In this document: positions 1 through 31,672 of the stretch, in pieces
Numbering within the stretch: position 1 is the first letter of the stretch
Layout: each line of letters opens with the position of its first letter
Source of the DNA: an uncultured Pseudomonadota bacterium
GTDB taxonomy: Bacteria > Pseudomonadota > Alphaproteobacteria > Rs-D84
DNA length: 41,554 nt
Assembly (NCBI GenBank): GCA_902788485.1
Contig: CADAKI010000006.1
Coordinates: forward strand, 1 to 41,554
Reading direction: 5' to 3'
Notes under the pieces: model-generated
Seen by the model: the letters and a program-made list of their open reading frames with translations, nothing else
Databases searched by the model: none
Told to the model about the DNA's origin: nothing
Program-made: the position numbers and the translations under genes

Positions 1-13
1 TCAAATAACACAG

Positions 14-113
14 GTTTGCGCCGTTGGCGCAAACTGGATCCCGGCCTACGCCGGGATGACGGCGCAGCCGACGGCATTCCCCTCCCTGGGGAGGGGCCCG
101 GCGCCCCGCCGGG
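14..113. repeat. Cluster of three GC-rich intergenic palindromes
   Basis: Three hairpins follow one another. One is a 9-bp stem at 14-22/26-34 with a 3-base loop. One is ATCCCGGC/GCCGGGAT at 38-45/50-57. One is CCCGGC/GCCGGG at 97-102/108-113, beside a CCCTCC/GGAGGG fold. The middle unit resembles the widespread intergenic GGATCCC...GGGATGAC-type palindromes of many proteobacteria. They lie downstream of the minus-strand gene that ends at 136. They may end its transcript, but no clear T-run follows. More GC-rich repeat pieces of similar composition occur at 2160-2245 and 3095-3185. Confidence 0.6.
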
Positions 114-135
114 ATACAGGGTGGGGATTATTGCA

Positions 136-2130
136 TCACATCCCAAACACCGCAGACCGAAACGACGCGCGAAAACGGACGAAGTACGCGCAGTTGAACG
201 CACAGTAGAACGCACAATTGTCGGCCGAACTGTACGTGCTGCCGAACACCCAGGACGAGGACGCAACGTTTACAGGATACACATCCCCGTTTGTAGCCGT
301 CCCATCCTCGCCAGGGACACCAACCGCCGTCATCTTGCACCAGCACTGTTTGAAACTCTCGCGCGGATAGTTTGCATTATCCTCTTGCCCCACCGGTGCC
401 GGTAATTCATAGAATTTCGTCTCTTGCGCCGATGTCAGTTTTGTGGCGAATGTCCCCGCAACGGATGTGCATTTTGCAATGCCATACACCGCGCCCGCGT
501 CGATGTCGCCCTCGGTGCCATCCCACTCAACCGCCCAAGAACCCGCGTTTTCTAAATCACCCGCGGGCAATGTTTGATACATGCCGCCGACCGTGCGTGC
601 CGGTGTCGCCGCCGTCCATTGACGAACATAGACCGATGTTGAACCATCAATATATGTTTTGCGGAAATCCGGGTTGCCCTGCCACCGGCGGAAATCAACA
701 CCGTTTTCCTCATATTGTCCGTTCGGGTTTACCTTGAAAAATGCCTCCACCCAGCGGTTTATCGGGTCAAAGATTTCGTACCAATGGGGGGTGCCGGATT
801 CATCCTCGACAAGTAAGCACTTTTTACCCGCCGGACAATTTTCGGCATTGTTCGCATCCGTTGGGTCATCCGCGGGGCGGGTTTGCTTGCCCGATTGCAA
901 GGTCGCAATCGATGCGGCCTGGGCAATCGTTTGTGTCACGACAGTATTCACCGTCGCCACCGCATTCGCCAACGCCGTATTCAGCGCACTAAATTCCGAT
1001 TCAACATATTTCGTGGATGCGATTTTTATACCATCCACGATGTTGGTAATGAGGGTTGCGCCACTGGTCAACAATGTTGTAATCGTCATGCCGGTAACAC
1101 CGCCGGTTTTGTTACTGACCGGCGCCATAGTCATCGTTTGTCCCGCAACAGATTCCGTTGTCGGTTCTGCCAGTGGGTAGACAACGATTACAGGCGTTCC
1201 CGCCGCATATTGGTCGGCAAGCCATTGGTTATACAAATCAACCGTTGTTAAAGATTGGTCGCTGCTTACCAAAACAATATTGGTTGCTACGAAATAAAAT
1301 ATATCATAACCGCTTGCAAAAGTACCTGCCTTAAAGTGTGTAGACAATAAATCAGTTGTTGTTCCAGTTATATTTGTTTGTCCACCACAAACAGCATAAT
1401 ATTTTCCTTCGTTGACATTGACAGCGGTTGCTTTTGCCCCAGTACTTACCCCGTCTAATACCTTTACTCCAACCTTTCTCGTGATTGCGCCAGTGTTGAT
1501 ATTTTGTGTGTCACGGTAATCGCCCACGCCCAACAAAGTCGCCACGGTCGCCGTATGATTCGCACTGTCCGCAATGGTTTCCACCGTACCGTCTGTGTAG
1601 ATTTCGCCATAAGGTCTATATGCGGTCGCAGTTGAACCTTGTTCAAGTTGTACTAACACTCCAGAACTTGGGGATATGTTACTATTATCGTTATATCTTG
1701 CAGAAAACCTTAAATATTTTGCTGTTGCTGGAACAACTATGTCTGATACGCTAAGTTTGGATACAAAATTTTCAGATGAGTCATAACAATATACTTCGTG
1801 AATAGCAACATTTTGTGTGGGAGTCGATATTGTATAACGATCAGAATTAACAGGAATAAAACCACTGCGAATACGAGTGCTAGAATTTGCTTCTTCGCCT
1901 GTATTTTGGAAAGTGCCTTGTTGCCATTGCCCATCAAACAAATTCGGGCTTACCTTCAACACACCATTATTACTTACAATGTCTATTGGTGCATTGGGTG
2001 TTGGGGTTCCGTTTTGTTCGACCAATCCCGCCACCGTCACCGCAGAAATCGGACCACCATCATCCGCAAAAACCGGCATGACACATAATGCACAAACCAA
2101 TCCAAATAAACATCCCAATATTTTTTTCAT
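136..2130 (-). CDS. Secreted phage-tail-like protein with a C-terminal variable (DGR-type) region
   Basis: A 664-aa exported protein. The start at 2130 is chosen because AAGGACGGG lies just upstream and a typical signal peptide follows (MKKILGCLFGLV..., predicted cleavage after VFA). Residues after the signal contain NGTPTPNAPI, NLFDGQW and YRPYGEIYTDG, phrases typical of phage tail/adhesin proteins. A C-terminal domain (roughly the last 190 residues) follows, with WCKM and a final block CAFYCAFNCAYFVR then ASFRSAVF. This last block matches the block in the protein at 31037-31672 and looks like a DGR variable region. Probable role: surface or secreted binding protein whose tip is diversified. 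Family recognition is partial, so the function is inferred. Confidence 0.8.
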   Translation of the reverse strand: MKKILGCLFGLVCALCVMPVFADDGGPISAVTVAGLVEQNGTPTPNAPIDIVSNNGVLKVSPNLFDGQWQQGTFQNTGEEANSSTRIRSGFIPVNSDRYTISTPTQNVAIHEVYCYDSSENFVSKLSVSDIVVPATAKYLRFSARYNDNSNISPSSGVLVQLEQGSTATAYRPYGEIYTDGTVETIADSANHTATVATLLGVGDYRDTQNINTGAITRKVGVKVLDGVSTGAKATAVNVNEGKYYAVCGGQTNITGTTTDLLSTHFKAGTFASGYDIFYFVATNIVLVSSDQSLTTVDLYNQWLADQYAAGTPVIVVYPLAEPTTESVAGQTMTMAPVSNKTGGVTGMTITTLLTSGATLITNIVDGIKIASTKYVESEFSALNTALANAVATVNTVVTQTIAQAASIATLQSGKQTRPADDPTDANNAENCPAGKKCLLVEDESGTPHWYEIFDPINRWVEAFFKVNPNGQYEENGVDFRRWQGNPDFRKTYIDGSTSVYVRQWTAATPARTVGGMYQTLPAGDLENAGSWAVEWDGTEGDIDAGAVYGIAKCTSVAGTFATKLTSAQETKFYELPAPVGQEDNANYPRESFKQCWCKMTAVGVPGEDGTATNGDVYPVNVASSSWVFGSTYSSADNCAFYCAFNCAYFVRFRASFRSAVFGM
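145..252 (-). other. Putative DGR variable repeat, copy 1 (3' end of gene 136-2130)
   Basis: This is the final coding segment, from the TGG codon (250-252) to the TTT codon (145-147), two codons before the stop. Its distal 26 bp (144-169) are identical to 31264-31289. Between the two copies 13 codons differ: 12 keep the same third base, and all 13 differences change the amino acid. Such first- and second-base variation in NNC/NNT codons, next to an invariant 3' block, is the known signature of adenine mutagenesis from AAC/AAT codons of a template repeat in diversity-generating retroelements. The template and reverse transcriptase are not in the window, so the call rests on the pattern alone. 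Confidence 0.65.
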
Positions 2131-2159
2131 TTTCCCGTCCTTTTCTTTTTTTGTTAACC

Positions 2160-2245
2160 CCCGCCACCGCTGACGCGGTCCCCCCCAAGCATCACCCACC
2201 CGTCGCATAAATGCGCCGCGGTGGGGCCCGGTGGAGGGGAACTTT
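2160..2245. repeat. GC-rich intergenic repeat fragment
   Basis: The segment contains GACGCGGTCCCCC and GGAGGGGAACTTTG. Both phrases also occur, in the same orientation, at about 3102-3180 (GACGCGGTCCCCC and GGAGGGGAACTTTGG). It is therefore a degenerate copy of the same extragenic element. It lies just upstream of the secreted protein gene starting at 2130. Confidence 0.5.
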
Positions 2246-31213: not shown

Positions 31214-31672
31214 TTTTACCCCCTTTTGTTTTGATTCCTGCGTTTTTTGTTTATCACCCAAATCAAACACCGCAGACCGAAACGACGCGTGCCTACGGAC
31301 GCTGTCCGCGCAGTCGTTCGCACAGTAGTACGCACAATCGGCGGCCGAACCGTCCGTGTGGAGGAAGACCCACGCACCCAAATTACCATTTTTATATTTC
31401 ACACGACACCATGCATTTGGACCAAACACACCATCCGGATTACCCGGCTTTGCATATTCACCCGGCGTCACAAATGCGCCAATATGAAATTCCTCTATTT
31501 TTGGATTTTGTTTCTGCATCCATGCAAATACCTTTTTCATATAATCTGTATTATATTTCACATAATCTGTATCATACGTTTTCTGACCACGATATGTTGT
31601 TGCGGGTTTTCCCCCAACAAAAATGCCATTGGCATTTACAGTGATATATTCTGTATTTGGAATGTTCGCCAT
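31037..31672 (-). CDS. Putative DGR target protein with downstream in-frame extension
   Basis: 211 aa, no signal peptide. Residues 1-95 (TEYITVNANGIFVGGKPATT, IGAFVTPGEYAKPGNPDGVF) form an unrecognised domain. WCRVKYKNGNLGAWVF follows, then the block CAYYCANDCADSVR and ASFRSAVF, shared with the secreted protein at 136-2130. In that protein the block ends the ORF. Here the frame continues through GDKQKTQESKQKGVK into a 58-residue segment (MYKDVKDYP...) that has its own ribosome-binding site. The start at 31672 follows AAAAGGGGGTAAAA. Probable role: ligand-binding protein with a diversified tip; inference from the variable block. Confidence 0.75.
   Translation of the reverse strand: MANIPNTEYITVNANGIFVGGKPATTYRGQKTYDTDYVKYNTDYMKKVFAWMQKQNPKIEEFHIGAFVTPGEYAKPGNPDGVFGPNAWCRVKYKNGNLGAWVFLHTDGSAADCAYYCANDCADSVRRHASFRSAVFDLGDKQKTQESKQKGVKMYKDVKDYPIQNTIVLCDKNGNYHVAFDTRAGHEEFSGTRADVVVQMTRRVKRILHVR
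31265..31372 (-). other. Putative DGR variable repeat, copy 2
   Basis: This runs from the TGG codon at 31370-31372 to TTT at 31265-31267. It aligns without gaps to 145-252. Differing codons (copy 1/copy 2) are GGC/CTC, AGC/CAC, TAC/GAC, AGT/GGT, GAC/GCC, AAT/GAT, TTC/TAC, TTC/AAC, AAC/GAC, TAC/GAC, TTC/AGC, TTT/AGG and CGC/CAC. Fixed framework codons include TGT GCG (twice), TGC GCG and GTC CGT, and the last eight codons are identical. Confidence 0.65.

Follow-up and report, generated by a model that had tools for sequence, protein, structure and literature searches.

Two unlike genes of a Candidatus Enterousia-type gut bacterium very likely carry variable repeats of one diversity-generating retroelement

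Why do two genes that are not alike outside one short shared block differ, within this block, almost only in the first two bases of their codons? The question is raised by the window, namely the whole stretch of DNA that was analysed (41,554 nucleotides), which is the entire contig C6 of G000, an 844-kb MAG (843,556 bases in 9 contigs; 90.8% complete) of a gut bacterium of the Candidatus Enterousia type in the Alphaproteobacteria. The blocks at 145-252 and 31265-31372, both on the minus strand and offset by 31120, align without gaps, and their distal 26 bases are identical. The remainder holds 19 substitutions in 13 codons (169-243), of which 12 keep the third base, the exception being TTT/AGG. 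The framework codons TGT GCG, TGT GCG, TGC GCG and GTC CGT are unchanged between the blocks, and at 12 of the 19 variable sites one or the other copy has A. Realignment reproduced the gapless match, the 26 identical bases, the counts of codons and substitutions and the fixed framework codons that the first-pass annotation had reported. Its statement that no change is synonymous holds for the 13 variable codons, but not for the codon at 247-249 (GTG/GTC), a synonymous third-base difference which lies inside the quoted interval just beyond the variable core and had been omitted. It is very likely that the two blocks are variable repeats (VRs) of one diversity-generating retroelement (DGR).

The genome-wide search for the 26-bp block, which had been proposed as a check, found five copies in G000 in all, two in the window and three elsewhere (Table 1), while a reversed-pattern control search of G000 found zero, so the match of the 3' block is not due to chance. 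In the three further copies the 26 bases are near-identical, and their role in initiation is putative, as judged from the sequence. Besides, contig C1 of G000 contains two weaker relatives of the VR domain. Target genes are flanked by dispersed repeats of the CATCCCGGCGTAGGCCGGGATCCAG type (window 1-135 and elsewhere), and these repeats are also found where contigs end.

Table 1. Features of the two window target genes and positions of the additional VRs of G000. Positions without a contig name refer to the window; TR, template.
Feature	Position	Strand	Remarks
Target gene A, 690-codon ORF	136..2208	minus	N-terminal signal-peptide-like stretch; VR at 3' end
Likely start of target gene A	2130	minus	MKKILGCLFGLVCALCVMPVFA
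C-terminal VR domain of A, 158 aa	139..612	minus	AlphaFold2 model; six conserved cysteines
Variable core of VR A	166..243	minus	26 template-adenine positions, 16 changed vs G013 TR
Non-A change in core of VR A	220-222	minus	one, GCC to GAC
Invariant 3' block of VR A, IMH-like initiation block (putative)	144..169	minus	identical to 31264-31289
Target gene B, 211 aa	31037..31672	minus	no signal peptide; directly behind tsf
VR of target gene B	internal	minus	about 65 residues ahead of the C-terminus
Variable core of VR B	31286..31363	minus	13 of 26 template adenines changed vs G013 TR
Non-A change in core of VR B		minus	one, third base of the TTT/AGG codon
Invariant 3' block of VR B	31264..31289	minus	same as 144-169
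Additional G000 VR	C8:24791	minus	3' end of target gene
Additional G000 VR	C8:987	plus	3' end of target gene
Additional G000 VR	C2:159079	minus	3' end of target gene

To find the template (TR) and the reverse transcriptase (RT), we turned to related genomes, which at rpsB-tsf are 97% (G015), 95% (G013) and 88% (G028) identical to G000. The full cassette, consisting of target gene, TR, a gene for a 108-aa OB-like protein and a DGR-type RT, is present in G013 and G028. In both, the TR is non-coding and adenine-rich, lies between the target gene and the two-gene unit of 108-aa protein and RT, and has AAC or AAT at nearly every variable codon; the RT-adjoining TRs read WVFNNTNSSAANCANNCANNCANNVR(N/D)NA(G/S)FR. 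The supposition that the DGR is encoded outside the window agrees with this adenine-rich non-coding copy next to a DGR-type RT, although the search for such a pair succeeded in G013 and G028 and failed in the G000 assembly. The 3' end of the G013 TR (GGCTTTCGGGCTGCGG) is unlike that of its own remote VRs and of the G000 VRs. The order target gene, TR, accessory gene and RT recurs in some 30 further named cassettes of related Alphaproteobacteria, whose MAGs are labelled Candidatus Enterousia, uncultured Alphaproteobacteria or Rickettsiales. The RTs belong to RVT_1 (Pfam) and match phrog_1423 (E 5e-102), and IGN..SQ and YCDD are invariant across the aligned sequences. Their closest solved relative is 8ub7_A (E 3e-70, full length), which we take to be the RT of the BPP-1 DGR. 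In G028 (L051, C5, 5147-6508) the accessory gene is broken into two frames, and about 25 residues are missing near the N-terminus of the RT, yet the adjacent TR/VR pair shows zero non-A changes.

The differences follow the adenines of this template. Of the 19 variable sites of the window blocks, 17 correspond to adenines in the G013 TR. When all five G000 VRs were compared with the G013 TR, A sites differed in 75 of 130 cases and other sites in 25 of 275 (Fisher p about 5e-25), and 15 of these 25 non-A differences represent one species-specific codon (GGC vs TCG) where the 3' blocks of the species differ. For the RT-adjacent TR/VR pairs of named genomes, 55% of adenines (406 of 738) and 0.5% of other bases (14 of 2667) differ, many pairs having zero non-A changes. 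The same excess is found at single loci: for window A against its G015 ortholog, and again for window B against its G013 ortholog, 16 of 26 A sites and 3 of 52 others differ (p 2e-7 in each case), which indicates that A-site rewriting went on as the species separated. Non-A changes are more numerous in the remote VRs of G000 (1 to 4 in the core), and also in those of the RT-bearing G013 and G028, than in RT-adjacent VRs, so the remote copies appear to be rewritten rarely or to be frozen. By analogy with known DGR biochemistry, the RT would copy the TR RNA with misincorporation opposite adenines, and the mutated cDNA would replace the VR starting at the invariant 3' block. Only the NN of NNC/NNT codons would then be altered while the cysteine and alanine framework codons stay fixed, and most of the altered residues are predicted to be placed on a single helix of a small domain rich in cysteine, which may form a re-drawable binding surface.

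The target genes belong to two families, one of long proteins with a signal peptide and a C-terminal VR (window A type), the other of short proteins with an internal VR and no signal peptide (window B type). An ortholog of gene A is found on contig C6 of G015 (L056), and the G013 ortholog of gene B (L060) contains two VRs in tandem. Pfam and NCBIfam searches with both window target proteins gave no match, while a META domain was matched weakly by four homologs. Copies of the block occur in both the secreted and the non-exported family, in line with the earlier suggestion that one template may serve several proteins, and to judge from the sequences a single type of TR apparently supplies five remote sites of G000, which belong to two or more target families unrelated to each other. 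Judging from export and from the usual nature of cellular DGR targets, a role in attachment to hosts or neighbours is probable.

The domain that carries the VR in window A was modelled with AlphaFold2 using 36 homologs (pLDDT 80.9, pTM 0.76). The model consists of strands followed by a C-terminal helix at 130-147, with a per-block confidence of about 90 to 95. The VR is predicted to form a strand-turn plus this alpha-helix, which carries CAxxCAxxCAxx and 8 of the 13 variable residues. Many TRs spell CANNCANNCANN or CAxNCANNCGNN, and a helix is suited to the four-residue period of this cysteine pattern. Searches of the PDB and fold libraries with the VR domain (Foldseek, VIA) gave no match with E below 0.1 or Z above 3.2, and a C-type lectin was absent among the matches listed by either program, a result with which a divergent lectin is compatible. 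The structure prediction favours the first-pass view that the scaffold is unlike the usual lectin tip, and it is possible that the variation is borne by a helix instead. The C-type-lectin variable proteins Mtd, TvpA and TaqVP (PMC5006420, PMC6328139) and the tentaclins (PMC10743442) likewise have a small, mostly C-terminal, variation-tolerant domain, and in tentaclins the VR lies on a beta-hairpin of the C-type lectin fold (PMC10743442). In contrast to all of these, a beta sheet, a VR-bearing C-terminal helix and cysteines at every fourth residue are predicted here.

The protein encoded next to the RT is also unusual when compared with the BPP-1 DGR (mtd-avd-TR-brt). The two systems are similar in the RT type, the TR beside the RT, the adenine-specific changes and the VR near the 3' end of the target; however, here there is no Pfam Avd beside the RTs and the OB-like 108-aa protein stands in that place, several targets are remote, and the VR is predicted on a helix rather than in a C-type lectin. 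A Pfam search with the conserved 108-aa neighbour gave no match to Avd (four-helix bundle, PF05635-like). Its model is an OB-like beta barrel (pLDDT 92.4) and not a helix bundle, and VIA matched it to OB domains including SSB and PriB (Z 5 to 7, up to 6.9), which is only suggestive of a kinship with them. The 108-aa family was found at 124 of 160 RT loci taken from genomes and viruses and is a possible counterpart of Avd. Another DGR-linked protein that has no Pfam entry is mentioned in a review (PMC10053308) and may be this family, and 'diversity-generating retroelement' and 'OB-fold' occurred together in no title or abstract that our literature search found. The family adjoins DGR-type RTs in many phyla and in viral contigs (L157-L316). 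As a whole, an Enterousia-type non-lectin scaffold, with a hypervariable helix having a cysteine at every fourth residue, an OB-fold partner replacing Avd and one template for secreted and non-exported proteins, is a tentative proposal on which we are nearly undecided, leaning slightly against. If it is true, this scaffold and partner would break the link of DGRs with the C-type lectin fold, which PMC8144416 calls near-universal for DGR targets.

Where, then, would the cassette of G000 be? No RT was found by an RVT_1 search of G000 at E up to 10, nor did a profile of the genus RTs match this assembly; accessory-protein profiles found none in G000, while the positive controls (G013, G023, G027 and G028) worked, and the TR search of the assembly gave no template. 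RT, TR and accessory gene were not found in G015 either (97% identical, 96% complete). The G013 cassette is located between tig and LOG-tilS-ftsH, and that of G028 is likewise behind tig, while in G015 tig is joined directly to LOG-tilS-ftsH, that is, the site is empty. Contig C8 of G000 stops ~1.8 kb past tig; the sequence past tig is element-like and partly matches the pre-cassette sequence of G013. LOG-tilS-ftsH was sought in the G000 assembly without a match. Because C8 ends after tig and the far flank tilS-ftsH is absent, the cassette site of G000 falls in an assembly gap. We consider it probable that the RT/TR cassette lies behind tig inside this gap, and with similar confidence we infer that the living species has an RT. 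A cassette just past the left edge of the window, near which VR A lies, was considered and dropped, as the G013/G028 site is behind tig and tig of G000 is on C8. Neither the cassette region nor the end of C8 matched an Rfam family.

The main rival to an assembly gap as the reason for the missing RT is loss, by which a DGR wrote the blocks and the species has since lost RT and TR, leaving a repertoire that is frozen and drifting. This would fit the absence of RT, TR and accessory gene from both G000 and G015, as well as the larger number of non-A changes in remote VRs. Seven MAGs (G000, G001, G002, G015, G018, G027 and G034) contain at least 7 VR-like domains and no RT, G027 retains the TR and the accessory gene with the RT gone inside a 143-kb contig, in G023 the RT is divided between two ORFs, and in G020 only a fragment of it is left. 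However, the gap at the G000 site also takes in tilS-ftsH, which must exist, and the extra sequence behind tig is common to G013 but was not found in G015. Contigs of related MAGs, moreover, frequently break at VRs or TRs; in G031, for example, 4 of 8 such repeats are within 150 bases of a contig end (chance about 3e-5). On balance we regard loss as rather unlikely.

A DGR of a phage, plasmid or co-resident strain might also act in trans on the window VRs, given that this RT type is common in viral contigs (at least 586 confirmed stretches). Yet the chromosomal RTs of G013 and G028 share 77% identity, while the best viral RT relatives among the matches listed reach only ~50% with the G013 RT. 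At non-A positions the TRs of G013 and G028 agree nearly base by base with the window core; action in trans is therefore quite improbable. It could further be argued that no DGR is involved and that the blocks are paralogous repeats under positive selection or gene conversion, the target genes being paralogs within each family and dispersed repeats being common in G000. But such paralogy does not extend to genes A and B, which share the block alone, and the changes sit on adenines of an independently found non-coding template beside a DGR-type RT, a match that selection does not predict. The RT-adjacent TR/VR pairs refute this reading in practice, and its probability is negligible.

A DGR of the lineage itself, with its cassette probably in the gap, can be set beside the cellular DGRs with multiple or remote targets. 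According to PMC6642488, 28.6% of DGRs have multiple VRs, and PMC8144416 notes that its RT-centred survey misses remote targets. As in the systems of these two papers, one TR type is linked with several secreted or cell-surface targets; five remote VRs in a sub-megabase alphaproteobacterium and two unrelated target families are absent from their available text. The main text of PMC12306168, a full-text paper on these bacteria, does not contain 'retro' or 'reverse transcriptase', and our literature search for Enterousia together with retroelements found no paper. The DGR itself is an already known mechanism, and what is new here is the host lineage, the remote and dual targets and possibly the scaffold. 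Remote VRs are plainly visible in this reduced-genome gut lineage, on a helical-looking domain. If our reading is right, it would offer a naturally occurring library system for helix display and a means of studying how a single template can rewrite proteins that are unrelated.

Besides, cassettes that are intact, one that has decayed and a site that is empty occur together in the genus, which makes gain, loss and freezing of hypermutation traceable. The dead cassette of G027 (L153, C3:24500-27500) has a shortened TR, an intact accessory gene and unrelated sequence in the place of the RT. G001, G002, G018 and G034 contain seven to twenty VR-like domains per genome with no RT match, and are possibly frozen repertoires after loss of the DGR. 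L336 (G015:C8) and L052 (G013:C4) represent the empty and the occupied state of the tig to LOG-tilS-ftsH site in close species, and a comparison of the two shows that the DGR cassette is gained or lost as a whole, the unit measuring ~7 kb.
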